DNA of 64,000 bases from Symbiodinium natans (taxonomy: Eukaryota; Sar; Dinophyceae; Suessiales; Symbiodiniaceae), in NCBI GenBank assembly GCA_905221605.1, contig CAJNDS010000011.1:192561-256560 (forward strand), in the 5' to 3' direction. The notes beneath the pieces are model-generated. The model was not told the origin of the DNA. It was given only the letters and a program-made list of their open reading frames with translations, and did not search any database. This document shows, piece after piece, positions 7,135-62,200 of this stretch. Within the stretch, counting starts at the first letter, position 1, and every line of letters begins with the position of its first letter. The position numbers and the translations under genes are program-made.

Positions 7135-7206
7135 AACGATTCCTGGTCCTAGCCCTAAATGAAACCCTAAAACCTAAACCCTGAACCCTAAACCCTAAAC
7201 CTAGGA
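7135..7206. repeat. Interstitial telomere-like repeat (CCCTAAA sense)
   Basis: Degenerate CCCTAAA/CCCTGAA/ACCTAAA units are packed between about 7151 and 7205. Perfect TTTAGGG is the telomere repeat of plants and several alveolates. Here the units are imperfect and internal, so this is not a chromosome end. It is the first of many such blocks in the window. Confidence 0.75.
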
Positions 7207-10800: not shown

Positions 10801-11012
10801 CAACCCTAAACCCCAAGCCCTAAACCCTAAACCCAGCAGTTCTGACAACCTTCCTGTGCCAAGGCCCTGCGGTGCCGCGGATGTGTTATGCCTGTCCGGG
10901 TTCGGCAGCTGGCTTGCGGGAAGGATTTGGGCGACAAGGAGCCTGGCTTGATTTCAGTGCTTTGAACCGCCTAGTTTCTTTGAAGTGGGTTTAGGGTTTA
11001 GGGTTTAGGGTG
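10801..11012. repeat. Facing pair of telomere-like repeats
   Basis: CCCTAAA-sense units occupy about 10,803-10,836 and TTTAGGG-sense units about 10,985-11,012, enclosing ~150 bp of GC-rich DNA. The two blocks are inverted relative to each other and could pair. The inner segment resembles nothing else in the window. Confidence 0.7.
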
Positions 11013-31747: not shown

Positions 31748-32229
31748 AAAATTGTCCTAATCGATCCACACAAACTTAACCTTGTACCGGAAGTTGTAAG
31801 CCGCGAACTTTCAGTGGTGACAAGAGCCCCTGCGTCGATCAGAGCTGTGCAACGTTCGTGAGAGTAGTCACTCTAAGAGCCTAAATGGCTACCGACCTAC
31901 CTGATGTCGACACTCAGCAGCGACTCTGCTCTCTGCTGCGGACTTGAGACAGTGCAAAGCGAGGCGTACAATTTGCAGCACTGGGCTGTTCCCGAACCTC
32001 GTTCCAGTCTATGCCCAGCTGCGATGGCAAGAGGCAACCATCGCACGTGGGACAGGAGTGTTGCTTGGCATCTGGGCTTTGACACCTGGCCGGCTTGCGA
32101 AGCGCACCGCGTAATGTAGTCTGATCTCGGTGTCTCGCGCTGCAAGAAGAGCCTGAAGGATGCAGGTAGCTGTTTCACGACTCTTTCACAAGCACATCCA
32201 TTAATTGCGATTTGGGCAAGCCATCCCGA
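31748..32229. other. Stretch without a recognisable gene
   Basis: Possible further LINE debris directly upstream of the reverse-transcriptase relic on the minus strand, but no motif is legible. Confidence 0.3.
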
Positions 32230-32965
32230 AAGCGGTTTCAGGGATGGTATGCAGATAGGGGCCCCGAAGAAACGATACTCCTGAAACTGTCCTCGACACT
32301 AACGTTTCAGCGGCAAGCCGAGCAGGCCGGCGTAAGGCGTATGGGGGAGGATCGTACACAGCCTACGGCAGAGGCTGTCGAACCCCCCCGGCCTTCGTCA
32401 AGGCTTTTGTCGAACTTCCGTGACAACTTCTGTGGGGATCCGGAAATCTTCGGTGAAGTTCCATGGCCAGCCTGCCTTTTGGCCGCCCCAATATCCCGAA
32501 CGCCTTTTCAGGATTCGGGCTTAATACAGAAGGCGATGGGGAGCCAAAACAAACAAACTTTCCTCAGCAATGCGCAAAGCTCAGTTGCAGGAGCTTGGAG
32601 GGTGTCCGCCGAAGCCTGTGCTTGCGGCTAGTTTCTCGAGTCAGCAGAATCAGCAGAGCAACGCCTGAAAAAGATGCAACCGCCCAGTGGGTTGCGGGCT
32701 GGTTGCGGGTAGGTTTGCCTCGCCCCTTAAGATAAGAGCTTCCCCTTGGCCGACGATGCGGAAGAAAATCTGGCAACAAGGCCGGGTGCTTCTGGAGCTA
32801 TCCTCTGCGAGAGGAGCTCCATCAACGATTCCGTTTGCCAGGGACCAGCGGTTCTTCTAGGTATTCCCAGAATCCCACCTTGCACTTTATCTGAGGAAAG
32901 CCATCATCCCGAATGCCGTTTCAGGTTTGGTACAGTTGGCGATGGGGAACCCAAACAAACGAACT

Positions 32966-34019
32966 TGCCTCAGCGATCCGCAAAGTTGTAGGAGCTTGGC
33001 GGGCACCTCCTGGTCCGACGGTTGTTTGAAGAGCTGCTTGGCTGCGGCGTCAAAGCTTGTGAGGGAGGGGAGCCACGACGACTCGTCTATCATCGTATAT
33101 CATTTAGCAGCGTAGCCAATACTTGTTTACAGTATCGCTGCAGCTCCGACGTGTGCTCCACCCTGCTACAAAGGGCATGTATCAAAGGAGCCTTTGCGGA
33201 GCTTGCCGGCCGTCCGCCCAGGCCTGTGTTTGCGGCTAGTTGCTCAAGTCAGCAGAATCAGCAGAGCAACTGCCTGGAAAAGTTGCAAACTCCCTGTGGT
33301 TGCGGGCTGGTTGCGGGTAGGTTTGTCTCGCCGTTTAAGATAAGGGGTTGCGCTGGGGATTGGCCTATGATACGGAGGGTGCTTCTAGAACTATGCCCTG
33401 CGACAAGAGCACCATCAACGATTCCGTTTGCCCTGGGACAACGGTTCCTCTAAGTATTCCCAGAATCGCACCTTGCACTTTTATCTCAAGCAACGAACAG
33501 CGATCCGCAAAGTTGTAGGAGCTTGGCGGGCACCTCCTGGTCCGACGGTTGTTTGAAGAGCTGCTTGGCTGCGGCGTCAAAGCTTGTGAGGGAGGGGAGC
33601 CACGACGACTCGTCTATCATCGTATATCATTTAGCAGCGTAGCCAATACTTGTTTACAGTATCGCTGCAGCTCCGACGTGTGCTCCACCCTGCTACAAAG
33701 GGCATGTATCAAAGGAGCCTTTGCGGAGCTTGCCGGCCGTCCGCCCAGGCCTGTGTTTGCGGCTAGTTGCTCAAGTCAGCAGAATCAGCAGAGCAACTGC
33801 CTGGAAAAGTTGCAAACTCCCTGTGGTTGCGGGCTGGTTGCGGGTAGGTTTGTCTCGCCGTTTAAGATAAGGGGTTGCGCTGGGGATTGGCCTATGATAC
33901 GGAGGGTGCTTCTAGAGCTATGCCCTGCGACAAGAGCACCATCAACGATTCCGTTTGCCATGGGACAACGGTTCCTCTAAGTATTCCCAGAATCGCACCT
34001 TGCACTTTTATCTCAAGCA
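32966..34019. repeat. Tandem duplication of a 527-bp unit
   Basis: Units at about 32,966-33,492 and 33,493-34,019 are nearly identical. The 143-codon plus-strand frames they carry (33,022 and 33,549) differ by one residue (Leu/Met near the end). No domain is recognisable in that frame and it lies wholly inside repeat DNA, so I do not call a gene. The high identity points to a recent event. Confidence 0.8.
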
Positions 34020-34332
34020 ACGAACAGCGATCCACAAAGCTTGGTTAGGAGCTTGGGGGCTACCTCCTGGTCCGATAGTTGTTTGCCGAACCGATTGGGT
34101 GCGGCATCAGAGCGTGTGAGGGAAGGGAGCGACGACACGTCGATCATCGTGTGTCACTTAGATCGTAGCCACTACTTGTGCACAATATCGCTGCAGCCCA
34201 GATGGATGCTCCAGTCCGATGCAGCGGGCCTCGTGCCAAAACCGTAGGCACTGGCTTGTTCCCAAAGCGTTGTTCCAGTCAACGTCCAGCCCGATCAAGC
34301 TGCTTGCGAAGCCAAAAATTGGCGGCACGTCA

Positions 34333-34545
34333 CCACCTGTTTAGGCTTGCACCGTGTCCGCGGTTCACAGGCACGAAATACCACATTGCAGAGGGTATGT
34401 ATCGTTGCCCGGGTTTTGCAATAGGCCTGCTTGTTGTTCTCTTGCCTCAGACATTCCAGAGGTACGTAACAATATAGGCGCTACAGAGGTCTGTGCCAGA
34501 CGGGGGATTGCGCGGACAGAACCGATGGCTTTGCAAGGGACGGGG
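34333..34545. repeat. Dispersed repeat, copy 2 (partner at 25,817-26,035)
   Basis: See the copy at 25,817. Here it is embedded between two module B copies of the 32-35 kb mosaic. Confidence 0.65.
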
Positions 34546-35489
34546 TTCGTACGCATTCCCCACTTAAGGGCCGCACCTACGGCTTCACGACGATTGGCGT
34601 CCGTCACCTCTCCCTACTTTTGATGCTGCAAGCTCTCGTTGCGGGCGTAGTCAGTGCCTTTTTTGGAAACGAGTGGGTAGATGCGCCGAAGCCCTGAAGA
34701 TAAGGGCTTGCGCCGGGCATTGGCCTACGATACGGAAGAAAATCTGGCAAAAAGGCCGGGTGCTTCTGGAGCTATCCTCTGCGAGAGGAGCTCCATCAAC
34801 GATTCCGTTTGCCAGGGACCAGCGGTTCTTCTAGGTATTCCCAGAATCCCACCTTGCACTTTATCTGAGGAAAGCCATCATCCCGAACGCCGTTTCAGGT
34901 TTGGTGCAGAAGGCGATGGGGAACCCAAACAAACGCACTTGCCTCAGCGATCCGCAAATCTCAGTTATAGGAGCTTGGCGGGTACCTCCTGGTCCGATGG
35001 TTGTTTGCCGAACCGCTTGGGTGCGGCATCAGAGCGTGTGAGGGAAGGGAGCGACGACACGTCGATCATCGTCCGAGACTTAGTCCAAAAGCTTTCATTC
35101 AAGTTTTGGCCACCCACTAGTCCAAAAGCTTCCATTCAAGTTTTGGGTTTTCGTCTGCGCTTCGTTGACAATAGTCGCGTCTGAGACTTTTCTCAGCCAA
35201 TGAGCTACCGTGTTCCTGCATGTACCCGCCCATAAGGCCCTACTCTACACAGTAGGAGTGTCACTAAAGCATCACATTGGCGATTAGTGCTCTTGCCCAG
35301 ATCTGCCTAGACACGGAATTGCTGCTTGCGTCGCCTGAGACTCTTGTGACTAGAGTGAGAGAGGGGATGCGGCTTCAGAAAAGAGCGCCTACTTTGTATT
35401 CTTTGGCGTGCCTACATTGTCGTGCGACGTGCCCTTCACCATTTGGAGCATCACGTGCGTTTCGTCAGGCTGAAACTCGTCGAAGCAGC

Positions 35490-40490: not shown

Positions 40491-42250
40491 CCTCGCTTTT
40501 GTTGATACGATGACCCGCATCTTTGTTGAGCATCGGCCGTCGCACACACAGGACGAAGATGCAGATGACAGCGAGGACGATAGAGCTTACAGTGTGTTAC
40601 CGTACTTTTTTTTTTGTGTGTGCTGTGTGTGGGTGTGTGTGTGTGTGTTGTGTGTTGTGTGTTGTGTTGTGTTGTGTTGTGTTGTGTTGTGTGGTGTGGT
40701 GTGGTGTGGTGTGGTGTGGTGTTGTGTTGTGTTGTGTTGTGGTGTGGTGTGGTGTGTTGTGTTGTGTTGTGTTGTGTTGTGTTGTGTTGTGTTGTGTTGT
40801 GTTGTGTTGTGTTGTGTTGTGTTGTGTTGTGTTGTGTTGTGTTGTGTTGTGTTGTGTTGTGTTGTGTTGTGTTGTGTTGTGTGTGTGTGTTGGTTGTGTG
40901 TGTTGTGGGTTGCGGGTTGGGGGTTCTGTGTGTTCTGTGTGGTTCTGTGTGGTTCTGTGTGTTCTGTGTGGTTCTGTGTGGTTCTGTGTGTTCTGTGTGT
41001 TCTGTGTGGTTCTGTGTGGTTCTGTGTGTTCTGTGTGTTCTGTGTGGTTCTGTGTGTTCTGTGTGTTCTGTGTGTTCTGTGTGTTCTGTGTGTTCTGTGT
41101 GTTCTGTGTGTTCTGTGTGGTTCTGTGTGTTCTGTGTGGTTCTGTGTGGTTCTGTGTGTTCTGTGTGTTCTGTGTGGTTCTGTGTGTTCTGTGTGTTCTG
41201 TGTGGTTCTGTGTGTTCTGTGTTCTGTGTGGTTCTGTGTGTTCTGTGTGTTCTGTGTGGTTCTGTGTGTTCTGTGTTCTGTGTGGTCTGTGTGGTCTGTC
41301 TGGTCTGTCTGGTCTGTGTGGTCTGTGTCTGTCTGTGTGTCTGTGTGTCTGCCTGTGTGTCTGTCTGTGTGTCTGTCTTTCACCTGCTTGTTGAGCATCC
41401 ATGAGCACAGGGCTGCAGCCTGCCTATCATACGGTGTGAGGATGACCACGTGATCTGCACAGAGTCTCTCGATGATCACATGGCCTTGGGCGAAGAGTAC
41501 GAGGAGGAGCGGGTGCCAAAGGACGATGTAGGGTGGTAGGGGCCCGACGCGCAGAGGCTTTTCGGGTTAGCTTGTTACCCGGGTAACCCCCCACACAACC
41601 CACCCCCACCCCCACCCACCGAGTTCCCTTAGTTTAGCAAACGCCTCTCATCTGACAAAGAACCTGCGCGTGGAGCAGTCGTATGAGAGTTCATGCATTC
41701 AATTTACCTTTGCATGGTGTAAGCCAAGAACCGTCGCTACAGAGTCGGAGCAGGTGGATGATGAGGCAGAGCTACGAGCAGACAGGGATCAGCAGATTCT
41801 GCAAGAGGCCAGGCGGCCAGGCATCTTGAGCTTTAACACCCGTCTGCCTCTGCCCGTCAGGCTTGTCTGCCGGTCTCTGGCGCCCCAATGCCACCCAGCG
41901 AGGGTCCACCCAAGGAGCCTCGTGCTTGTTCATGTGTCATTCAAGCGCTCTTCAGCATTCTTCATCTCACTTCTTCTTGACACCCCCGTGGGTATGTGAT
42001 TGCACGCATGTCTGTCCTGAGAGGACGCCGACGAATACCTGCGTCAAGTGCAGTGGGAGCGACTGCATTGTCCAGAGGCAAGGGGTTCATCAAAGCCGTT
42101 GCACGAAGCTACGGACATGCAAACTGAGAACGTGCGCTGTTGAAGGGCGTCATGTTGCAGGAACTTGCTTGCTGTGTCCAGTTATACGGCAGCTTCAGGG
42201 CTTTGAAGCAGCTGCGAATGGCCTGGCAAACTGCGTTGCTTACATGTGAT
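40490..42250 (+). CDS. Candidate spliced gene, fragments only
   Basis: Several plus-strand stretches look like exons. At about 40,552-40,590, after an ACACACAG acceptor, an acidic run DEDADDSEDD is read. At 41,410-41,518, between CACAG|GG and GAT|GTAGGG, the reading includes CEDDHVICTESLDDHMALG and a Glu-rich end. At 41,746-41,830, after CTACAG, it includes EQVDDEAELRADRDQQILQ. At about 42,022-42,077 the reading EYLRQVQWERLHCPE ends at AGAG|GCAAGG, a GC donor as used by dinoflagellates. A helical tail with ALKQLRMAWQTALL lies near 42,200. EYLRxVxWE..xxCP resembles the N-terminal motif of Gemin2/SIP1, an SMN-complex protein, but the match is short. Phases were not all reconciled, so exon limits are guesses. 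The minus strand of 41,397-41,570 is also open. Confidence 0.3.
40609..41385. repeat. GT-rich simple-sequence array, ~780 bp
   Basis: Three zones follow each other: mostly (TTGTG)n at about 40,650-40,885, mostly (GTTCTGTGTG)n at about 40,924-41,285, and (GTCTGTGT)n at about 41,286-41,380. Because the units lack stop codons, frames of 270-370 codons run through on both strands (Val/Cys-rich or Thr/His/Gln-rich); these are artefacts. The array lies between two candidate exons and would be intronic if that gene is real. The 12-bp string 'ttgttgagcatc' flanks it on both sides (near 40,524 and 41,388). Confidence 0.95.
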
Positions 42251-45905: not shown

Positions 45906-47363
45906 TCTGTTCTCCAAAAGATGACAGGACGACATTCAATACCAGCTGCAGCGACTGCGCCGCCTTTGCTGCCGCTTTGCCGAGGGCACGGCATCTAAGG
46001 ACTCCTGGCTTACAACAGTCCTGAGCCCGAACTTAGCAACCCCAGGGTTTAGGGCTTAGGGTTTAGGGCTTAGGGTTCAAACCTTTCGTACGAGTTGTTA
46101 CCAAAAACCCTGAGCACTGAACCGACGAGGAAATAATGCCAAACCTACGAAGCACCGTACAGACCAAGACCTGCCTTGGAGCTTTTGCAGTGCCTGCTAG
46201 ATAGCCGGGAAATTCTCAAAACCCTGCACAGCCCGAATCCCAGCCCCTAGCTTGAAACGCATGAATTTGAGGAACAGCTAGAGTGCAAAGTTCCTGAAAG
46301 CGGAGCAAGCGATTGTCTTATGCCAATTGCGGGTCTGTACTGAATGAAAGATGTTGGAGCTCATACCTGGGTCAGCCTACATCAGTTGATGGTGGGTTTG
46401 GTTACTTGTATTTCGAATCAAGGGTATGCGTGGCACGGCAAACAGGTTGGAAGCGACCTGGACACAGGCGCAGGATGCTTGGGAACATGAGATTTTCACC
46501 TTCTGCGCACCCGATTGACCCTAGTAAGCCACGACCCCAAGAGACGCCTCTCGGGCAGGTGCTGCTGGAGCAACGTGTGCTTTCCTCCATCCGCGGGTGG
46601 CACTGCTGCTGGTCCTCGTGTCCGAGGTCTTTGGGCAGCCTTGCACTCAGCAAACGAACCTGTACCAAATTGCAAATCAGCCTGCGCGAATGCAGCTTCG
46701 AGGCGCAGCATACAACCATACTGCACGCGACGCATCACTTAGGCACTGACAGGTTCGCCATGCCCGTGCCACTGGAAAAAGAGACAGCGCTGCCTGACGC
46801 AAGAAAAGATCACGAGCGTCAAGTGCACAGAAGGCGGCAACCCTGTGGCGTGCAGAAAAAGATTTCGTCAGTAAGCATCCCGATCTATGCTCTATATCGG
46901 GAGCTGCTTCATGCTAGAAAGCCATTGCCGCTCGCAATTGCCACGACACTCGAGTTGAACTGCAAAGATGAAAAGATGAAAAGATGAGAATCTGCCAGGG
47001 TCGACAGTGAAAACCCAAGCAGTGCAAAAACCGTCAGCCAATTGAGGTTCAGCGTAGCGCAGGTGGCTTGATATGTAGGTGATGTAGTGGGCGGGCTTTC
47101 TGTTCAAGACACGCTCTGTTTCGGTGGAAGTCTCAGGCCTCATGAGGAAGCAGGTTCTGCGGAAGTGGCAAGACCTGGGGGGAAAGATTGGGCCATGAGA
47201 GCGCTGTTGCAACAGTTTTTAGGGCCTTATCCTTGAGGCAGGATCCTGTCCGCTCTTTGTGCTACGAGCCAGTAGGGTCCAGCGAGACATATGTGTGTAT
47301 TGAGTATATATAGATGGGGATACATACCTGAGCTTTTTTGTTGTTGTTGTTGCTCTTCGGTGC
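45906..47363. other. Stretch without a recognisable gene; telomere-like block
   Basis: A telomere-like block alternating 'gggtttagggcttagggtttagggcttaggg' lies at 46,044-46,074. A 224-codon plus-strand frame (46,313-46,987) has irregular composition and no domain, so I leave it out. 'ttgttgttgttgttg' lies at 47,339-47,353. Confidence 0.4.
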
Positions 47364-52122: not shown

Positions 52123-52181
52123 AGGGCTTAGGGTTTAGAGTTTAGGGTTTAGGGTTAGAGTTTAGGGTTTAGGGTTTAGGG
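52123..52181. repeat. Telomere-like repeat block, insertion target of the LTR element
   Basis: TTTAGGG units, some degenerate (TTAGAG), run up to the first base of the LTR. The block resumes directly after the element at 60,872 as 'tagggtttagggtttaggg'. The element therefore sits inside one telomere-like tract. Confidence 0.85.
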
Positions 52182-52398
52182 TGCGGAGCTGCAGTTTGTA
52201 TTGAAGAAAAGAGTTGGTGTAGAAGGGTTAAGGGTCAATGAACCCGGAACAATTTTTGGCTCAAGATCGGGCCATGCGCCTAGAGAAGAAAGGGTGCTTG
52301 GTGTTTTGGGTTGGTTTGTTGTTTGTTGGTCCAGGGGATCAAGGGCTTCTGTTGGGGTTGACTGTCTTGTTCCCTGTCCTCCTTCGGTTGCCCCCGTA
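52182..52398 (+). repeat. 5' LTR (217 bp)
   Basis: It begins TGCGGAGCTGCAG and ends CCCCCGTA. It matches 60,654-60,871 base for base except for one C missing in the terminal C run. It starts with TG as usual but ends in TA instead of the common CA. The spliced-leader-like motif lies at 52,244-52,265. A 'ttttgggttggtttgttgtttgttgg' G/T-rich stretch follows around 52,296-52,330. No TATA box is evident, as expected for dinoflagellates. Confidence 0.9.
52244..52265 (+). promoter_or_regulatory. Spliced-leader-like motif in the 5' LTR
   Basis: The 22 bases begin CCGGAACA and end TTTTTGGCTCAAG. The dinoflagellate spliced leader, as I know it, ends CCATTTTGGCTCAAG and begins CCGTAG. Allowing one extra T, roughly 17 of 21 positions agree, including the last 12. 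Relic leaders arise in dinoflagellates when trans-spliced mRNAs are reverse-transcribed back into the genome. Inside an LTR, the motif could mark the 5' end of the packaged RNA (start of R). The same motif is in the 3' LTR at 60,716-60,737. Confidence 0.5.
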
Positions 52399-52410
52399 GG
52401 TTATGAGCCC
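52399..52410 (+). promoter_or_regulatory. Primer-binding site, initiator tRNA-Met anticodon arm
   Basis: GGTTATGAGCCC starts at the first base after the 5' LTR. Its complement, GGGCTCATAACC, contains the CAT anticodon flanked as in the anticodon stem-loop of initiator tRNA-Met (yeast iMet has this string). Copia of Drosophila and Ty5 prime reverse transcription with a cleaved half of this tRNA in the same way, whereas most LTR elements pair with the tRNA 3' end. All twelve bases match. Confidence 0.75.
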
Positions 52411-52463
52411 AAATTAGGTTCCCTGCGGTTTGTGTTTCGGCTTTAGGGTGGTAGCTTGAAGCA

Positions 52464-55139
52464 ATGGCCACCAATTGGCTACAGACTGGTGCGACGCCAT
52501 CAAGCTCCAATGTGGGCGAGCAAGGTGAAGGTGGTGTCAAAAGGTCTGCAACAGGTGAAAAAATAGTTCCCAATGCGGAAGCTCTGGTTGATGCTGGTGG
52601 TAAGCGTGGCGAAGAGAAGCTGGTGGTGGAAGGACTGGAAGACCAGATGGAAGTAGCTTTGCTACGCCTTCTGAGCAAACATGGGCTTTGTCTTCGAGCT
52701 GCGGAACCTGCGGAATCAACGGGAGCGTCAAGAACAAGCTCCTCTACATCGAAGATGGTGGAGCAAGAGTGCCAGACAGAGCTGGTTGGGGATGTTATCC
52801 CTGTTTCCAAGCGAGCTCGCAACAAAGTGAGCTTCGCAACTGGAAGTGGCGATCTGTCGACAGGTGAAGCGGAGGAAACTGCGCCTGTTGCTGCGACAAA
52901 AAGCAGTATCCTCGTTCCTGGGGACGCAGAAGGAGTCGTTCCTGTTGCTATGGTGATGAGTGAAGGAGAAATCCTGGAGTTGGAAGCAGCGAGAATACGG
53001 CAGGAGTCAGAGGAAGACTTAGATGCTGCTGGGGGAGACAAATTGTCTCAAGCTGCTGACTTTTCGATCATCGACTGCGATGGGAAGACGTGGGAGCGCC
53101 ATTTTCATGATGATGGGAGAGAATATCTTTACTGTTTAGACACTGGAGATACCCAATGGGTGGTGCCTAAGAAGACTGGAATGGCTGGAAACAGCGAGGG
53201 GCCAGGTGTTGGAATGGGCATTGTCCCTGTGGGAGATGAGCCAGCGCTGGGTGCTACCTCGTCCCCGTCACCTACTGAGTCTTCTAGGGCACAGCAGGGT
53301 AGCATGGAAAGTGTGAACAGCCGTGTAAATAGTGTAAGTGAAAAGGTTTTTTCCTCTACTATCGGGGATAGCGGTCTTAGGGGTGGTGCTGATGCCCAGA
53401 CCTCGGGTTCTCCTGAAGAGGAAGGAATTTCTGGAAACCAAGCAGACATCGCTGGAGAACATCTGGATCGGGAAGAAACGGAAGCGCTTTCTGAGGGTGT
53501 GGCAGCGGTGGAATCTGTGGGTCCAGAGGACAAAATGCCCAATGCGGAAATTGGAACTGTGTCGGCTGCAGAAGAGCGAGTGGTGGATGTGGTACCTGTC
53601 GTTCAGGAAGATGGTCCTGGAGATTTGGATGACGGAGGGAAAAAATCGTGCGTTACGACTGAGGAGGTCTCTTCGTCTGGTGCCAAGAGTTCTGCCATTC
53701 AAGGGAAAAAGGAAGCTTCTGAAACTGCTGGAGACACGGTCGATCGGGAAGATGAGGCCTGGAGCGCCAATGAAGCGCGGGTCAATGTGCCAGATAGTAC
53801 CTGGAGTGCAGAAAAAGCACGGGTTGAGGCGCATATGGTGTCACGTTCCGCGGATGACTGCAACAATGGGGCGCAGGTCTCCGTAGCAGCTGATGATGGA
53901 GGTTCACAGGTGGACGCACTGGTGCAGCCTGAAGTTAGCAGCGAGGAACGAAATGGCGAAGGCTACACCGGAGCCAATGTGGCAGCTGTGGTCAACGACA
54001 GTGGTGATTCTCTTTTGGAAACCATGGAGCCAAAGGAGCCTGCGGTGGAAGAAAATATGCCTACCGCGGATGACCAATCCAATAGCCCTGTAGTGGAAGA
54101 AAATTTGCCTGCTGCAGAAGGTTTGAAAAAGGACTCCAATGGTGGGTCCACTCCCAGGAAGGGAGAAGTGTTGCCATCTGAATGCTTGCCGGAAGTCGAC
54201 ACCGAGCGAGCTGTAACGGATGAGGCAAAGCCATTGGCTGGAAAAGAGGATGGTTCTGACCTCCAGGAGCACAAGGTGGATGAGCTTGTGGGACTCGTGG
54301 AGCAGGACAAGAAGTTTGCCCCCAAGGTGGAACCAAGGGACGTTCCGGGAGCCGAAGAAACAATTCCGGTTTCTGAAGAACCAACGAAGAAAGTGCCCAA
54401 AGAGGGAGCCTTGGATACACCTGGGAAGCATTTCTACCAAAAGGGAGATCGGATCAATGGTCTAGTGCGCTGCATCAATGTACATGGAGCTTTTTTGGAC
54501 CATGACGGTATAGACGTATTGATTCCTGCGGAAGGGAAAGATACACATGCTTTCAAAATTGGTGACACTGTCAATGGAACAGTGGAAAGAGTGGATGATG
54601 ATGGTACCGTGATCTTGGATACCTTCCTGGTTTTGGAGGAGGATGAGGAGGACTCCTCTTCGACGCTGCGCAAATGGAAAGACAGCGGCTGGGGTACATG
54701 GTGGACAGGCTCATGGCAGACTGGTCAATGGTACCAAGGTTCCGACGGTCAATGGGACTGGAAGTCGGAAGAACGGCAGTCCCGTGAGTGGTTTGCCGAT
54801 CCAAAAACATCCTCTAAGGAACAAGAGGAAGCTGAACAGAGGCAGCTCTATGGAGAAAAGATCTATAGAAATCTCCTGGAAGATGAAACAATAGATAAGG
54901 ACTATGTGGGCAAAATCACTGGGATGTTGCTGAGTCGTCCAATTGACGAGATTATGGAGTGTGTCGCAGATCATACATTCCTGAACACTGAGGCTCGGCG
55001 TGCATACAGCATCTTGCAAAGTGATGGTTGGAAGCCCGATGGGACAGAATGTGCAGGTTTGGAAAAAAACAATCACCTTTTCCCGGAAGCAGTACCACAA
55101 CGCGCTCTACGAACTGGCACGCAAGAAGAGGAGATTTAG
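52464..55139 (+). CDS. Element block 1: WW, S1/OB and MLLE domain protein
   Basis: The block has 891 codons from ATG, 53 bases after the primer-binding site; this is the first ATG in this frame after the site. Residues 1-200 are acidic and probably disordered. Residues ~205-240 form a WW domain: Trp210, the GREYLY core and Trp232 with Pro235. Residues ~240-650 are acidic and disordered, with recurring E-E-N-x-P phrases. Residues ~655-728 are S1/OB-like (GDRINGLVRCINVHGAFLDH, then IGDTVNGTVERVD). Residues ~740-766 are a Trp-rich linker. Residues ~796-856 are an MLLE domain with KITGMLL at 817-823, the signature of the poly(A)-binding-protein C-terminal domain that binds PAM2 peptides. The last ~22 codons, after an A7 run at 55,063, are probably out of the true frame. 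Expected role: a gag-like RNA-binding protein. Confidence 0.8.
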   Translation: MATNWLQTGATPSSSNVGEQGEGGVKRSATGEKIVPNAEALVDAGGKRGEEKLVVEGLEDQMEVALLRLLSKHGLCLRAAEPAESTGASRTSSSTSKMVEQECQTELVGDVIPVSKRARNKVSFATGSGDLSTGEAEETAPVAATKSSILVPGDAEGVVPVAMVMSEGEILELEAARIRQESEEDLDAAGGDKLSQAADFSIIDCDGKTWERHFHDDGREYLYCLDTGDTQWVVPKKTGMAGNSEGPGVGMGIVPVGDEPALGATSSPSPTESSRAQQGSMESVNSRVNSVSEKVFSSTIGDSGLRGGADAQTSGSPEEEGISGNQADIAGEHLDREETEALSEGVAAVESVGPEDKMPNAEIGTVSAAEERVVDVVPVVQEDGPGDLDDGGKKSCVTTEEVSSSGAKSSAIQGKKEASETAGDTVDREDEAWSANEARVNVPDSTWSAEKARVEAHMVSRSADDCNNGAQVSVAADDGGSQVDALVQPEVSSEERNGEGYTGANVAAVVNDSGDSLLETMEPKEPAVEENMPTADDQSNSPVVEENLPAAEGLKKDSNGGSTPRKGEVLPSECLPEVDTERAVTDEAKPLAGKEDGSDLQEHKVDELVGLVEQDKKFAPKVEPRDVPGAEETIPVSEEPTKKVPKEGALDTPGKHFYQKGDRINGLVRCINVHGAFLDHDGIDVLIPAEGKDTHAFKIGDTVNGTVERVDDDGTVILDTFLVLEEDEEDSSSTLRKWKDSGWGTWWTGSWQTGQWYQGSDGQWDWKSEERQSREWFADPKTSSKEQEEAEQRQLYGEKIYRNLLEDETIDKDYVGKITGMLLSRPIDEIMECVADHTFLNTEARRAYSILQSDGWKPDGTECAGLEKNNHLFPEAVPQRALRTGTQEEEI
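55063..55070 (+). other. Frame change (+1) at an A7 run
   Basis: The frame of block 1 reads GAA AAA AAC here. The continuing protein (KKTITFSRKQY onward, then CCCH fingers) lies in the frame one base further. One surplus A in the seven-A run explains the shift; so would a programmed +1 frameshift. The heptamer A_AAA_AAC is a classic -1 site, but a -1 shift would lead to the wrong frame. Homopolymer sequencing error is a plain alternative. Confidence 0.7.
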
Positions 55140-55749
55140 TGGACCAGTCGTGGGTGAAACAGTGGCAATGTTGCTAAGCCAAGGGAAAGATGAGCTTTGG
55201 AACGAGCTGTGGTTGGATACCAAGCGTTTTCTGCAGGAGCTTGATGGTGCAATCGAGGAGATGAGTAAGAGGGAAAACAGGCCAATGGAAGCCTATATGG
55301 ATCCTGATCAGTACAAAAAGGCTCACATGACTCCAAAGACTGTGTCACCTGGATACAGCAAGCTGTGCAAGTTCTTCAATCAGGGAAGGTGTCGCAACGG
55401 TGATGAGTGTTCCTATGAGCATCGTCGTTATGGTGAAGGTTGGCCAGGGGGTGGACCAACTGAGCCAAAGAACAGCCAAAAAGCTGGAGATGAGGATGGG
55501 AACATTGGTGACCCCCCTACAGAGGAAGGCACAGTGGATGAGGCACAGCAGGAGCGGGAGGATTCAGCCTTCCGGGCCAAGTACAACTTTGGTAAAGGTG
55601 CATCAAAGGGTGAACCTACGTTGGGTGAGCCAAAAAGTCGGCTGTGTCTGTATTACAATCAAGGTGGTTGTAAATATGGGACTACCTGCAGGTATCTTCA
55701 CGACGATGACATAGCATTGGAAGGGACTTGGGAACCCGGCAAAGCTTGA
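55071..55749 (+). CDS. Element block 2: two CCCH zinc fingers
   Basis: The block is open in frame from before 55,000 (nominal ATG at 55,000) to a TGA at 55,747-55,749. The useful part starts after the A7 run. It begins with a basic helix (YELARKKRRFSG), continues with a helical stretch (LWNELWLDTKRFLQELDGAI), and has two CCCH fingers of C-x7-C-x5-C-x3-H spacing at about 55,363-55,423 and 55,644-55,701. A Gly/acidic linker joins them. CCCH fingers usually bind single-stranded, often AU-rich, RNA. The TGA is in frame with block 3. Confidence 0.75.
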
Positions 55750-58700
55750 GACAATGCTTCCAGGAAGGCACTAAGGGACGCGGGGTTCCACCATTGCTGT
55801 TTCGATTATTACCTCAGAGGACATTGCCGTAAGCGGTTCAATTCCTGCAGATTTTCCCACGACGAGATGTCAGATGAGCGGCTGGCGCACCTGAAACACG
55901 TGGTACACGTGGCCAATCAGATCCGGTTTGAAAGAGAGAGAGGATTGGAGATTTCGGACAGGAGCACTTTTCAGCCACCTGCGAGTGGGGGAGCTGAATC
56001 TTCATCGTCCTCAGCACCACAAGCGTTGCAAATGACCAATGTGTCAAAGAAAACAGGTGAGGTTGATACGCTGGATGGAACAGATGGAGATGTACAAAAG
56101 GATTCGGTGGCAGAGACTACCACTGTACGTCTTCAGAATCCAGAAGAGCCAATAGAAAATTGGATGGCTCGCAACCAACACTTGTGGGTGTATACGCCCC
56201 ACATAAGTGAGGTGATGATCAAGCTTGGTGTGACCACTGTCCAAGAGCTACAAGAGTACATCTTTGTGGAGGACTTGATGGAAAAAGGGGTTAACAAGGT
56301 GACGGCCTGCAAAATTCTGCAATTGGTGGGTGGTGTCCATTACCGGCCAATGTCGCCGGGTATGGCTGTTTCTACCAACGCAGCAGTACGTGTGCAACAA
56401 TCTTCTGGAAGCCGTGACGCTGGAAGAGGTGGGGTGAGAACTATCTCTCAAGTGCGTGAAGCTGAAGGTCCTGGTACAAAGGAAATGCCACGAGGGTCTT
56501 ATCGAGAGATTTTCGACACAGGCAAGTACCATGACGCTTGGACGCTGGCACAGAGGTCCCCGTTGCGCGTGCAGAAGTTGCGATTGGTGGGAGTTGGAAT
56601 GCCACCGGTGAATCCGCCAACAAAGGTGGGTAGGTCAAGATCGAACCCTGTTAGAAGGGGAAGGCCCTTGCTGGATAAAAAACAGGTGCGACTGGTGCCA
56701 CGCTCACGCTCACAACGGCGTGTGCAGCCGGCGGAAGTGGTGGAAAAGCCGAAGCCGCTGGAACCAGTAAAGCCTCGTGGTGGTTTGTCGTACCCATTCA
56801 GCCGAGCGTGGGCAGATTTGGTGGACGATGATGATCAGACAGGGGTTCTGGTCTCCTATGCTGATTCCTCAGGTGATTCGAGCGAGGAAGAAACCAACAG
56901 CGCTCGACGCCTGCGGGAAATCTTTTTGCAAGAAAGGGATTCAAAAAGAACTGTGACGCGTGGCAATGCTCCACTTACTGGTTCTTCAAGCTCCAATGAT
57001 GGGCAGAAAAAATCGGTTCACCTTGGCGAAAAGCGCGACAAAGCGTCGCGGGGGGAGACCCGCCAAGAAGTGACTTCTCAAGTTTTTTCGCTACCACAAC
57101 CTTCTCGTCCCACTGAGCAGTCTCAAAAAAGAGCAAGGGATGGCTCAGTTATAGTTGGTTCGCTGGCGGTGGGCTCCACAGATGAGGTTTTACCTGGGCA
57201 AGGTGTTGCTGGACAGGTGAATGTATCTGAAAGCGCTCAAGTTCTACCTGGGCAAGATGTGGCTGGACAGGAGACGGCGCTGGAAGGAGCAGTACAAATT
57301 CCTGGCGAGGAGACTGACCAAAAAGAAGGAGAAGGTGGGAGCAATGAACTCCGTGGCGATGATACGAAAATATTGGATGTTCTTCCGGTGAAGAAGGGCT
57401 ATCAGCAATTGCTCACCAAAGGCCTTCTGAATCGGATTTATTGGAAGGTTGCTGTCGGCAAGTTGCCTGTGGGGCAAAAGGACTATCAGAAGGGGTCCAA
57501 TAAAATGGATCGAAATTTGGTTATTAGCATGTCCTCTGAAGGTGCAAGCGAACAGGATTTGAACCTGGCACTGGAAGACGATGCTGATCAGAAAATGGAT
57601 GATGGTGCATTGGTGGTCATGGCATATGACCCTGGTACACTGATTCAGTCGGCAACAACTGTTTGGGTTACGCGTCGTGGGTTGGCAGATCGTGCTATCT
57701 GGCCGGCAATAGCGACTGCAGCACAGAGAATATGTGCTGAAATGGTTCAAGTGGATGAACTGAATGCCCAGTTGAACACTGGGAGACTCCTTTTTGAAAG
57801 GAGAGATCAAGGACACTACGGAGATTTGCATCATTCGTTCCATGAAGATCCGTGCTTGCCGGTGGTGGGAAATTATCCTCTTTCGGTGATGGGTGCACTG
57901 CTTTCTCCTGGCCTGGAAAAGGAATTCAGAAATACTGAAAAGTTTGGAACTGCTATGGAGGCAATAGCCTATGATTGGAGTCGCAGTCCAGGCATGGAAG
58001 TTCATGTGGAACTTATGGCAAGGGTAGCCAACCTGGTTGCTCCATTCCTTAGACTAGGAGGCCAAGGGATAGTGGTGAATTCCGAATTTCTCTGGCAGCA
58101 CGGGAGGGACCAAATGATGGAGTTCCTTCAGGCGGCGACGTGTGCTGATCAATTGGAGGTTCTCTGGAGAAGAATGGACGACGATGCTGATGAGGAAGTG
58201 GATCCTTCAGGGATGGTGCTGGAGATCCCCGAACAACAAGATGCGGTATCTGAGCAAGGGATCAATGAATCCCCTATTCCCATTGAAGATGAAGGAAGCG
58301 AGACAATTGGTGATGCTGGAAGTGATGGCAAAGCGCCAGAAGTTTCTCCAGAAGAGGAGACATCCAGTGGTTCATCAAGATTGGCTGGCACCAGAATGTT
58401 CTTGTGGTCGGTGTATTCTCGTGTTGTTCCCAACTGGGATTTCTCTCCGCAGGACCGCACTACGAGTAGGATCTTTGACAGCACGAAGGGGTATCCTGGT
58501 GAAGGACCGGACAATGGTGACGATTTTTCCTCTAAGAGGAATTTACCCTGGATCTCTGAAGATTATCTCGACGAAGTGATGTCAAAAAAGATGGAAAGGT
58601 CTTCAGATGTGGATGGGTTGAATGGGCTTGTTCCGGAAAGTGAGGTACAGTCCGAGAGGGTAGAGGTGGAGAATGTTACTGCCTCTAGAATCCTTATGGC

Positions 58701-60276
58701 TCTTTGGAAAAAGGGATATAGAGCTGGGTATAGGAGGTTGTGTCGTACAAATCTACCTGGATCCAAGGTTGGAGCAATGAAACATCCAATCAAAAAGGCG
58801 CGGAAGATCGGCACTAGAAAGGCCTTCTTGAAAGTGTTCAATGTTTTTGGATCATCTCAGAATGGCTCAGGAGCTGGTGGGAAACCAATCATGAAGGTGA
58901 TAGGACCAAGACCAGGTTTTCCAGCTGTTCTTGATGCATCAAACATTGATAGCACCTTGGGTGAAAAAGGTAGTCCTTCAGATCATGGCAATGTCCATGT
59001 AGGGCGGAATTGTTCCATGGATCGTCTGGAAGCAGAACGCTTGTCGAAAAGGAGGCAAGGTATCTGTTATTGGTTCGCCAAAGGGAACAATCGCTGCAAA
59101 TTTGGAGAGGACTGCAAGTTTATTCATTCCAATGATGATGTGGTGCTGCAATCGTATTGGTGCAAATACTATGTGGCTGGAAGACACTGTTACGCTGGAG
59201 AGGACTGCAAGTTCTCCCACGATGCAACTGGTGTAAGGTGTATCCAGTTTGCTCGGTCTGGAAAATGCCGTCATGGGGACAGGTGTGTCTTTGAACATGG
59301 TGATCCGCTGGATGAACAGAGGCCAAGGTCTCCAAGGACGCCCCCAAGGGATGGTCCGCGGAGGAGTGGTGGAAAGGAAATTTCTCCGGAACGGTATGAT
59401 GATGATGAAGAGGATTTCATGGGGTACGACGACGATACCCGGATGATGGAATTGCTGATGGAGGCGATTTCTTTTCTGTCAGATGGTAAATCTGATTTGG
59501 CCCGCGCGGAGGCGGATCCGGTGTTTAAGCTGATAAAGTTCAATGGAGACACTGACCAGAGAGACGCAGAATGGTGTTCGTGGACTACTGGCATGTTGTC
59601 TGCATTAGAACTTCACGAGATAGTGAAGTCGCATGAGATTCCACTAATGGAGGTTGAAGAGTGGATCGATGAGTTGAGGATATGGTTCCAGCGAGCCAAT
59701 ATGAAAGAGGAGAGAGATCCAAAAAGGCACAAAAAGAGGTCCCTAGAAAGGGAGTCCAGTAAGGATAATCCTGCTGAAGAGACGGAGGTTGTCGTTGAGG
59801 AAGAGGTGAAGATGGCCAAAAAGAAGAGGAAAACTGCTGCAATTGAGGATCCCTACACTCTTCTGGTTCCAAAGCCGAAGAAGATGCCGGTTAACATGGA
59901 GAAGGGTGGATCAGCATCCAATGCGGTGGTATCTGGAAGGGAAATGGCCTCTTCGAGAATGCGCACCAAGGCAAGCGTCTCAGGAAAGATGAAGAAGAAA
60001 GAGAAAAGTCAAAGTCCCAAAAAGGAAGAGGTGGTCGTGGTGGAAGGTCCGGATGAGAAGAACCGTCCTTCTGAAGTGGAGGCACAGTCATCTACCACTG
60101 TGAATGCAGATCTGGGACAATCCTGCCAAGCTATTGAGGATGCGAAGAGAGAGGGGTTGATATCCTCAATTCAGAGGGGCATACAAGATCCTGTTCTTAC
60201 AGTGTCGGACCTGGAGCATGTTTTGCTGCGACTTCACCTGAGTATCGGTGGCCATCGGAAGGAAAAGAAGGGATGA
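55750..60276 (+). CDS. Element block 3: four CCCH zinc fingers, large unassigned core
   Basis: The same frame as block 2 stays open from just after the TGA; the first ATG is 55,867, giving 1,469 codons. Between the TGA and that ATG lies an intact CCCH finger (C-x8-C-x6-C-x3-H, 55,798-55,860), which argues that blocks 2 and 3 were one protein. From the ATG: residues ~100-165 look like a small helical fold (PHISEVMIKLGVTTVQELQEY). Residues ~250-480 are basic and disordered. Residues ~510-780 are a well-folded-looking unassigned core (GLLNRIYWKVAVGKLP, LADRAIWPAIATAAQRI). Residues ~1067-1143 hold three CCCH fingers (C-x8-C-x5-C-x3-H). Residues ~1160-1260 are a second small helical region. The C-terminal ~200 residues are Lys-rich. 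No polymerase, protease or integrase motif is seen. Confidence 0.75.
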   Translation, partial: DNASRKALRDAGFHHCCFDYYLRGHCRKRFNSCRFSHDEMSDERLAHLKHVVHVANQIRFERERGLEISDRSTFQPPASGGAESSSSSAPQALQMTNVSKKTGEVDTLDGTDGDVQKDSVAETTTVRLQNPEEPIENWMARNQHLWVYTPHISEVMIKLGVTTVQELQEYIFVEDLMEKGVNKVTACKILQLVGGVHYRPMSPGMAVSTNAAVRVQQSSGSRDAGRGGVRTISQVREAEGPGTKEMPRGSYREIFDTGKYHDAWTLAQRSPLRVQKLRLVGVGMPPVNPPTKVGRSRSNPVRRGRPLLDKKQVRLVPRSRSQRRVQPAEVVEKPKPLEPVKPRGGLSYPFSRAWADLVDDDDQTGVLVSYADSSGDSSEEETNSARRLREIFLQERDSKRTVTRGNAPLTGSSSSNDGQKKSVHLGEKRDKASRGETRQEVTSQVFSLPQPSRPTEQSQKRARDGSVIVGSLAVGSTDEVLPGQGVAGQVNVSESAQVLPGQDVAGQETALEGAVQIPGEETDQKEGEGGSNELRGDDTKILDVLPVKKGYQQLLTKGLLNRIYWKVAVGKLPVGQKDYQKGSNKMDRNLVISMSSEGASEQDLNLALEDDADQKMDDGALVVMAYDPGTLIQSATTVWVTRRGLADRAIWPAIATAAQRICAEMVQVDELNAQLNTGRLLFERRDQGHYGDLHHSFHEDPCLPVVGNYPLSVMGALLSPGLEKEFRNTEKFGTAMEAIAYDWSRSPGMEVHVELMARVANLVAPFLRLGGQGIVVNSEFLWQHGRDQMMEFLQAATCADQLEVLWRRMDDDADEEVDPSGMVLEIPEQQDAVSEQGINESPIPIEDEGSETIGDAGSDGKAPEVSPEEETSSGSSRLAGTRMFLWSVYSRVVPNWDFSPQDRTTSRIFDSTKGYPGEGPDNGDDFSSKRNLPWISEDYLDEVMSKKMERSSDVDGLNGLVPESEVQSERVEVENVTASRILMALWKKGYRAGYRRLCRTNLPGSKVGAMKHPIKKARKIGTRKAFLKVFNVFGSSQNGSGAGGKPIMKVIGPRPGFPAVLDASNIDSTLGEKGSPSDHGNVHVGRNCSMDRLEAERLSKRRQGICYWFAKGNNRCKFGEDCKFIHSNDDVVLQSYWCKYYVAGRHCYAGEDCKFSHDATGVRCIQFARSGKCRHGDRCVFEHGDPLDEQRPRSPRTPPRDGPRRSGGKEISPERYDDDEEDFMGYDDDTRMMELLMEAISFLSDGKSDLARAEADPVFKLIKFNGDTDQRDAEWCSWTTGMLSALELHEIVKSHEIPLMEVEEWIDELRIWFQRANMKEERDPKRHKKRSLERESSKDNPAEETEVVVEEEVKMAKKKRKTAAIEDPYTLLVPKPKKMPVNMEKGGSASNAVVSGREMASSRMRTKASVSGKMKKKEKSQSPKKEEVVVVEGPDEKNRPSEVEAQSSTTVNADLGQSCQAIEDAKREGLISSIQRGIQDPVLTVSDLEHVLLRLHLSIGGHRKEKKG

Positions 60277-60640
60277 CTGGATGGTATCGATGAGGGAATG
60301 GGTTTTTTCTCTTTCTGGAGACACGTGCGCTGGAACAGCCAATGTGCTGGAAGTATGGTGGTTACTATTAAGGGTATGGAAATCCCTGATAGTAGAGAGT
60401 GTACAGCTTTTCGCGTAGCGAAGACCACGGTTCGTGGTGAAGAAGGCTAAGAGTCTTCAATGACAAGAGAATCATGGTGGTAAAAAAGATTCTCTGTAGT
60501 GAGGGGTGTTTAGCCAATGTGCTATAAATTCGTCCTGGATGACGTAAAACCACAATTTGCATTCCAAGCAGCTGGCTGCTGCCTTAATGGCAGTTTTTGG
60601 CCAAAGGTCTGCACCTCCAGTTTGTGTCCTAGGAAATCCT
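60277..60640 (+). other. Element 3' untranslated region
   Basis: About 360 bases lie between the last stop and the purine tract, with no further frame of interest. 'tcctaggaaatcctaggaca' (60,628-60,647) is a short direct/inverted repeat just before the tract. Confidence 0.6.
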
Positions 60641-60653
60641 AGGACAGGGGGAG
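60641..60653 (+). promoter_or_regulatory. Polypurine tract before the 3' LTR
   Basis: AGGACAGGGGGAG ends at the base before the 3' LTR. It is purine except for one C. Its position is that of the primer for plus-strand DNA synthesis in LTR elements. Confidence 0.7.
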
Positions 60654-60871
60654 TGCGGAGCTGCAGTTTGTATTGAAGAAAAGAGTTGGTGTAGAAGGGT
60701 TAAGGGTCAATGAACCCGGAACAATTTTTGGCTCAAGATCGGGCCATGCGCCTAGAGAAGAAAGGGTGCTTGGTGTTTTGGGTTGGTTTGTTGTTTGTTG
60801 GTCCAGGGGATCAAGGGCTTCTGTTGGGGTTGACTGTCTTGTTCCCTGTCCTCCTTCGGTTGCCCCCCGTA
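60654..60871 (+). repeat. 3' LTR (218 bp)
   Basis: Identical to the 5' LTR apart from six instead of five C in the terminal run. It carries the second spliced-leader-like motif at 60,716-60,737. The flanking TAGGG at 60,872-60,876 matches the five bases before the 5' LTR, although the surrounding TTTAGGG repeats make a chance match likely. Confidence 0.9.
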
Positions 60872-62200
60872 TAGGGTTTAGGGTTTAGGGTTTAGGGTTT
60901 AGGGGCTCTTAGCCTGAAAGGCCGGGAAGCTGGGACCCTGCGATCTGTGACGATGATGGCATCGAGGGCGAGGAGAGTGAAAACATGTTTCCCGACACTC
61001 GGCGTCAAAAGCTTCCCTGACTCAAGGTTTGGTTTCATACCCTGAACCCTAAACCCTAAACCCCAAACCCATAACTTAATCTCCGGAAGCCTGCAAACTA
61101 GGTGCGCGGCGCACATCTCGCCGTGCGTTTTCGTGCAGAGATTGAAAATTAAGATGGCTGGAATTTGCTAAAATGGTGCTATTTACAAGGTACTCGGCGT
61201 CCTGAGAGGTGGGAGCGGGTTATGAACGGCACTCTAAGGGGAAAACACGTATTTTAGTGTTTTCGCCTAGGGAATTCACTCCTTTCAAAGAGTTCTGAAA
61301 TGCCTAAAACTACTTTCCGTTTTCAAGGATTTTAGGGCTTTCAGGGGTTTAGAGTTTAGGGGCTTAGGGATGTTTTAAGGTGTAGGGCTTTAGAGGAAAG
61401 GTTGCTTGAGGATTCTGGGGCAGTAGGATTTCCGGAATCAGGTTTTGGGAAAACCTCAACCCTGAACCTCAAACCCAGAGACCTCAACCCTAAGCCCCAC
61501 ATCCTCAATCCTCAATCCTAGCCCTAAACCCTGGGACAAAGCAGAGCCGTAAGTACCCTTAAACCCCCGAAGCCCTATACACCCTAAACCCTAAACCTTA
61601 CCCCCCCCAAGCCCATATAGCGGATTGCGCTATCGGTTTGGAGACTCAGAGGCCCCTTCGGGGGTTCCTGGCGGGCTGGAAGTCGAAGGATGTGGGGTTT
61701 AGGGGTTCAGGGTTTTAAGGGTTTTGGGTTTAGGTTTTCAAGGGTTAAGGGTTAAGGGTAACCCTAAACCCTAAACCCTAGGGCCTATAGGTGTGAACAT
61801 TCTGCGGCCCCAGGTCTTTGGCCCTTTTAGCTTGAACCCTTTTTAATGCCCAGCCCCCAAGCTGGCTCGTAGGGTTTCGGGTTTAGGGTTCAGGGTTCAG
61901 GGCTGCGGCAGCAAGTTCGGGGGATCTACGGGCTGAGGGGGTTGCAGGTTGAGGTCTTTCAAACTCGCTTCAGCTGCTGCAGTGCCGCTTGCAAGACAGC
62001 CAGCCAGGCCAACACCAACATGGCGGCTTCGGGATTCCGTAGTTTAGGGTTTAGCAAGTCGGAGGGCTACGGTTTAAGTCAGGGCTCTGGGTGTAGCCTT
62101 AGCATCTGCAGAGTTGCCAGAGGCCTAAACCCCGAACCCCAACATCAAGGCTAAACTCCAAACCCCAAACCCTGCAAACTGGAGCACTAAAAGACTGAGG
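60872..62200. repeat. Region dense in telomere-like repeats of both orientations
   Basis: TTTAGGG-sense units occur at 60,872-60,903, 61,320-61,395, 61,695-61,758, 61,870-61,905 and 62,040-62,056. CCCTAAA-sense units occur at 61,040-61,068, 61,455-61,610 (highly degenerate: CCTCAATCC, CCCTAAGCC, CCCTAGCC), 61,759-61,781 and 62,125-62,172. At 61,740-61,781 a TTAAGGG run meets a CCCTAAA run head to head. No gene is seen between them. Degeneracy and mixed orientation exclude a present chromosome end. Confidence 0.75.

Follow-up and report, generated by a model that had tools for sequence, protein, structure and literature searches.

How an element that has the complete terminal structure of a long terminal repeat (LTR) retrotransposon, and an interior in which no enzyme of retrotransposition is detected, could be copied and inserted is the question raised by positions 52182..60871 of a 64,000-nucleotide stretch of the Symbiodinium natans genome (GenBank assembly GCA_905221605.1, contig CAJNDS010000011.1, positions 192,561 to 256,560 of the forward strand; hereafter the window, whose coordinates are used throughout). 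The explanation we favour, and hold to be probable, is that the element is a recent insertion belonging to a multi-copy LTR family without pol, encoding a giant RNA-binding protein and receiving its enzymes in trans from a Copia element. An earlier sequence-only reading had described a non-autonomous element with gag-like coding blocks. Its core, an LTR element without detectable pol, stands, two unbroken relatives of the protein likewise being without pol, and its view of mobilisation in trans is probably correct, whereas the identification of the protein as Gag is not upheld.

Terminal structure and coding sequence

The LTR-element structure of 52182..60871 is confirmed. A direct repeat of 215 nucleotides at 100% identity, with copies 8472 bases apart, was found by repeat search, and full alignment of the two LTRs revealed no substitution, the sole difference being one extra C in the 3' copy (a run of five C against six), which bears out the near-identity first noticed. 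Both LTRs start with TG and finish with TA instead of CA. The primer-binding site and the purine tract likewise lie where the sequence-only reading had placed them, directly inside the LTRs, and the element thereby carries the defining features of an LTR retrotransposon: two terminal direct repeats, a transfer RNA (tRNA) primer-binding site and a polypurine tract. The terminal features are listed below.

52123..52181, +: TTTAGGG-type telomere-like array in the 5' flank, ending in the TAGGG presumed to be the target-site duplication
52182..52398, +: 5' LTR, 217 bp, TG...TA (repeat search and full alignment)
52399..52410, +: primer-binding site GGTTATGAGCCC, 12 nucleotides complementary to the anticodon arm of initiator tRNA-Met (against the E. 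coli initiator tRNA)
60642..60653, +: polypurine tract GGACAGGGGGAG, with one C inside, read directly; it ends at 60653 and abuts the 3' LTR
60654..60871, +: 3' LTR, 218 bp (repeat search and full alignment)
60872..60904, +: TTTAGGG array continuing beyond the element, its first bases TAGGG

With its first base at 52399, directly behind the 5' LTR, the sequence GGTTATGAGCCC is present a single time in the two strands of the window. Its reverse complement, GGGCTCATAACC, is contained in each of the three initiator tRNA genes at the metZWV locus of E. coli K-12; the tRNA compared is that of E. coli and not the host's, which we take to carry the same anticodon arm. Rfam and tRNA scans of the window gave no match, nor did an Rfam scan of 60270-60900 at E values up to 1. 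A duplication of the LTR by assembly was considered and judged unlikely, in view of the one-base difference between the copies, the placement of primer-binding site and polypurine tract exactly inside them, and the occurrence of relatives on many contigs.

Between the LTRs, the three coding blocks described earlier proved by tblastn to be one open reading frame (ORF), broken by one frameshift and one in-frame TGA. The coding stretch aligns over its full length with two relatives that are each a single frame, P0003 (2606 amino acids) and P0004 (2609 amino acids); residues 1-879 of P0003 match one frame of the element and residues 866-2606 the next, at 79-80% identity.

52464..55109, +: first coding part, from the ATG, in element frame 1 (tblastn to P0003 residues 1-879)
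55063..55069, +: run of seven A at or beside the frame change (read in the sequence; the tblastn frames overlap at 55066-55109)
55066..55746, +: second coding part, in frame 2 (tblastn), containing two CCCH fingers, 55360-55422 and 55630-55704 (Pfam)
55747..55749, +: in-frame TGA, read through by the single-frame relatives (comparison with relatives)
55750..60276, +: third coding part, in the frame of the second, up to the family's own stop (tblastn)

Because the protein alignment runs end to end, only 65 bases between the 5' LTR and the ATG and 377 bases between the stop and the 3' LTR lie outside the ORF, which leaves no room for pol. Since the LTRs are without substitution, the frameshift and the TGA would be either very young, or base-calling errors, or changes carried by an RNA copied in trans. 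Outside the element, the window contains short DNA matches to it only (E 0.038 or weaker) and no protein matches.

The giant protein, its relatives and the search for pol

The recognised parts of the protein are modules usual in host RNA-binding proteins, namely S1, MLLE and CCCH, the last in the form of six zinc fingers arranged as two triads. In addition to the two fingers given above, the following features were located.

54438..54617, +: S1 RNA-binding domain (Pfam E 0.0063 and 0.00043, both just below cut-off; the fold of the P0025 model matches S1 chains)
54819..55016, +: MLLE (PABC) domain (Pfam E 1.8e-9)
55789..55866, +: CCCH-type finger completing the first triad (sub-cut-off Pfam match, E 0.19; P0003 has the motif)
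57601..58221, +: well-conserved region, predicted helical at low confidence, without family match (conservation, model, Pfam)
59062..59301, +: second CCCH zinc-finger triad (Pfam)

Profile searches of the coding blocks against Pfam returned nothing of pol or gag. Four pieces of the window copy, scanned at E values up to 1, gave MLLE, S1 (below cut-off) and CCCH-type matches, and otherwise weak sub-cut-off matches unrelated to either gene. Of five relatives scanned with an E limit of 10, four showed domains of these kinds, with two weak sub-cut-off extras (DUF1331, ANGEL2_N), and P0021 matched nothing. The window copy and the scanned relatives thus lacked any match to reverse transcriptase, integrase, protease, RNase H or gag families, as the sequence-only reading had stated, and no diverged reverse transcriptase or integrase was matched in the third coding block. 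In precomputed Pfam lists, 26 of 30 relatives have entries, all of them MLLE or CCCH-type models, and the other four have none; Copia reverse transcriptase and integrase are without a match in the four window pieces, the five scanned relatives and these 30 lists alike. The description of the protein as gag-like could not be established either, as no gag or capsid family matched the window pieces or the five relatives and the zinc fingers are of CCCH type rather than CCHC knuckles. This last point was checked in P0003, where a scan with regular expressions, in the patterns as we wrote them, found no CCHC knuckle, no HHCC zinc motif and no protease D[ST]G motif.

Longer versions of the protein that might bear pol were sought with two parts of P0003. 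Residues 640-1420 retrieved 13 proteins and residues 1650-2420 retrieved nine, from candidates of up to about 4560 amino acids; none was a pol-bearing longer version, all fall within the 30 relatives, and none exceeds 2609 amino acids. Because two unbroken relatives of the same length also lack pol, its absence would reflect the build of the family rather than a local deletion.

The family is large. Related proteins in ENA form at least 30 clusters, with 628 member sequences in sum, on contigs of 28 different lengths and up to 476 kb, and in some relatives (P0021, P0028, P0022, P0016) parts of the protein are found again at identities as low as 47-62%. Some relatives are mosaics: over residues 60-165, P0018 shares 95% identity with P0015 but 38% with P0013, whereas over residues 900-1140 it is 96-97% identical to P0013 and P0014, and the identity profiles of other relatives likewise switch along the protein. 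Such mosaics are expected from template switching between co-packaged RNAs during reverse transcription, and gene conversion or assembly chimaeras are possible alternative sources. Taken together, the divergence, the kept frames and the recombination suggest that the protein has long been integral to a replicating family, rather than a passenger of one copy. Searches for relatives of P0003 in viral contigs and in genome contigs returned two and 11 stretches, respectively, that matched the pattern, none of which was confirmed.

A second type of N-terminus, covering the first 200 amino acids or so, was observed in P0005, P0015, P0018, P0028 and P0030; compared in bins of 50 residues, it shows about 30-50% identity to the N-terminus of the window copy, and it is shuffled onto the common remainder of the protein.

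Structural models add some detail to the domain inventory. In the P0025 model both MLLE and S1 folds are seen; the 50 Foldseek matches listed were mainly S1 chains and included no MLLE, which came from a second search. A second MLLE following the first finds no support in sequence, the score being reached by 135 of 1000 shuffles, but may exist, since the same model shows a second four-helix domain at 459-522. A WW domain was set aside, the corresponding profile stretch reaching only E 0.13 against Prp40 WW chains, and a candidate SAM-like fold at P0025 815-873 consists of predicted helices for which no match was obtained. No PAM2 motif was found by regular expression in six relatives. When the window pieces were scanned separately at Pfam E values up to 10, only weak sub-cut-off matches appeared besides S1 (UPF0149, VP3-like, NusG, Sey1 and others; best 0.034).

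Probable mobilisation in trans and competing explanations

In the mechanism that we favour, unbroken members of the family encode a single protein of about 2600 amino acids, carrying S1, MLLE and the two CCCH triads, whose most likely role is to bind the polyadenylated RNA of the element itself and package it. Reverse transcription would be primed from the anticodon arm of the initiator tRNA, and an autonomous element of the Copia superfamily would supply reverse transcriptase, RNase H, protease and integrase in trans. A Copia-type partner is favoured because the primer site is complementary to 12 nucleotides of the initiator tRNA anticodon arm, and such an element is the best candidate for the helper. 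Priming from the anticodon loop is described for Ty5 and Drosophila copia, both members of the Copia superfamily, and in the same source a plant survey assigns 3'-truncated tRNA primers to Copia lineages only and attributes 5-bp duplications to the Copia families compared there (PMC10886601). Copia is also given as the most abundant retrotransposon superfamily in Symbiodinium (PMC5890265). The element shares with Drosophila copia, yeast Ty5 and fungal Copia elements a primer site at the initiator-tRNA anticodon loop and a 5-bp flanking repeat, but differs from them in having no Copia polyprotein.

Several points weigh against this explanation. The flanking TAGGG, which the sequence-only reading counted among the defining features, is present at both junctions and consistent with a target-site duplication, yet it is weak evidence for one because each flank is itself a TTTAGGG array. 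Of the 30 relatives, only P0003 and P0004 cover the protein from end to end; P0005 (2435 amino acids) lacks about the first 164 residues of P0003, and the other 27 are shorter pieces. Two pairs of these, P0006 with P0023 (both on contigs of 67787 bases) and P0016 with P0022 (both on contigs of 25021 bases), correspond to adjoining parts of P0003 and so are probably a single broken copy each. The relatives are known as proteins alone, so that LTRs around each of them are an assumption. The searches required shared 5-residue words, and the one that gave the 30 relatives scored only the 7982 candidates sharing most of them, a procedure by which distant pol-bearing relatives could be missed. Three [YFW]xDD strings (FHDD, YDDD, WTDD) occur in P0003, unaccompanied by any reverse transcriptase match, and much of the protein, including the conserved helical region, is without a family match and may conceal a very diverged enzyme. 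The LTRs presumed around other copies, the role of the protein and the identity of the helper are put forward here as inferred.

A highly diverged Gag capsid might have escaped recognition in the region at about 57601-58221, which would make this a true gag-only element and would be compatible with mobilisation in trans by a Copia helper. The helices predicted there, at low confidence, coincide with conserved columns, and the region is followed by a zinc-finger cluster, which is the order of capsid and nucleocapsid. It is without a Pfam match, but the structural evidence is uninformative rather than negative, a 978-residue model having a mean predicted local distance difference test (pLDDT) score of only 31.4 and no Foldseek match in PDB at E values up to 0.001. 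We regard a hidden capsid as a real possibility, if somewhat short of an even chance.

Alternatively, an LTR element may have captured a host gene for an mRNA regulator with MLLE, S1 and CCCH modules in place of gag-pol, the protein then having no role in transposition. Every recognised domain is indeed of host type, no gag family is matched, and with 27 of 30 relatives below full length a strong constraint on the whole protein is not evident. Such transduction nevertheless seems unlikely, since pieces of the protein recur to 47-62% identity, the frame is intact from end to end in two relatives, and there has been recombination between copies. That the window copy is instead a broken derivative of an autonomous element, with pol residing in longer relatives, would accord with its frameshift and in-frame stop and with the fragmentary state of most relatives, but it is highly improbable, as the unbroken relatives share the C-terminus without pol and no version with pol appeared among the searched candidates of up to about 4560 amino acids.

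LTR elements that lack pol are usually short, non-coding or gag-only, and the interiors of large retrotransposon derivatives (LARDs) are known as non-coding. The present element resembles LARDs in being large, LTR-bounded and free of retroelement domains, and falls within the Inpactor rule for that class (at least 2000 bases and no domains; PMC6022998), but its interior is coding, with a long ORF common to the relatives and about 2600 amino acids in length in two of them. With the TR-GAG elements of plants, classed as non-autonomous, it shares LTRs and one coding region without pol; TR-GAG elements have a recognisable GAG domain (PMC6022998), whereas here no gag family is matched and the protein, of about 2600 amino acids, is built of host-type RNA-binding modules. 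The element thus fits a broad known kind of non-autonomous LTR element and differs in its coding content, and perhaps in its LTR. Neither a pol-less LTR element with an MLLE/CCCH protein nor a spliced leader inside an LTR was found in titles and abstract openings among the matches listed in the open-licence literature. An old family with a 2600-amino-acid protein of host RNA-binding type, including the MLLE of poly(A)-binding protein, suggests another way of keeping a trans-mobilised element going.

A spliced-leader-like sequence in the LTRs and other repeats

Each LTR contains a sequence resembling the dinoflagellate spliced leader (DinoSL), for which the sequence in PMC12014239 was used for comparison.

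52244..52265, +: spliced-leader-like sequence in the 5' LTR, possible start of the R region; its last 12 bases, TTTTGGCTCAAG, are exact
60716..60737, +: second copy, in the 3' LTR

The last 12 DinoSL bases, TTTTGGCTCAAG, occur in both LTRs and give no third match in the window. When one inserted base is allowed, 18 of 21 leader bases match, and the resulting score of 26 was reached by one of 5000 LTR shuffles and by none of 5000 shuffled leaders. The LTR likely holds a spliced-leader relic, although three results speak against it: the 21-base leader, ungapped and with up to three mismatches, was not found anywhere in the window; the usual 15-base relic, even its last 13 bases, is absent intact from the LTR; and outside the element two of 1098 windows, overlapping at one site, score 28. 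If the leader is real, its perfect 3' part and degenerate 5' part could be accounted for by strand transfer before the 5' end of the RNA was reached.

It is conceivable, if rather doubtful, that R starts at the spliced leader, so that the genomic RNA would be trans-spliced as dinoflagellate mRNAs are, the element recruiting the trans-splicing of its host to define its own 5' end, and the leader, now the 5' terminal repeat, would be copied back into both LTRs, with the giant MLLE/CCCH protein replacing Gag and capturing the polyadenylated RNA. A trans-spliced genomic RNA would set the element apart from C. elegans Cer1, whose full-length RNA is reported as not trans-spliced (PMC3315495). It would also offer a testable route for trans-spliced RNA into LTR reverse transcription, and would bear on the question, still open, of what returns cDNA tagged with a spliced leader to the genomes of dinoflagellates. 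Cassandra and Helenus are similarly non-autonomous and carry sequence derived from a host small RNA in the LTR, here apparently the spliced leader; Cassandra is a small terminal-repeat retrotransposon in miniature (TRIM) with 5S rRNA sequence and RNA polymerase III signals (PMC10886601), whereas the present element is 8.7 kb long and coding, and its insert would be of trans-spliced-leader origin. The site outside the element that scores 28 lies on the minus strand at 31877-31892, where GTAGCCATTTAGGCTC agrees with the spliced leader in 15 of 16 internal bases; it may be the relic leader of a retrocopy or a product of chance.

The ORFs of at least 200 amino acids in the window number 17. Eight were scanned and gave two weak sub-cut-off Pfam matches, three are pieces of the element itself, and six, in a GTGTTCT-type array, lie outside the scan. 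Short internal arrays of TTTAGGG type, the telomere unit of dinoflagellates and also of plants (PMC11453091), are numerous in the window (7162-7201, 10802-10834, 10987-11015, 46044-46077, 61039-61070 and others), and the element lies inside one of them. Together with the spliced-leader-like sequence, these arrays suggest by themselves that the host is a dinoflagellate. At 40614-41376 a long GTGTTCTGTG-type array leaves several overlapping frames open, apparently through composition alone. Tandem-like repeats were also observed at 825-2466, with a spacing of 571 bases, and at 32784-35083, with a spacing of 527 bases among others.

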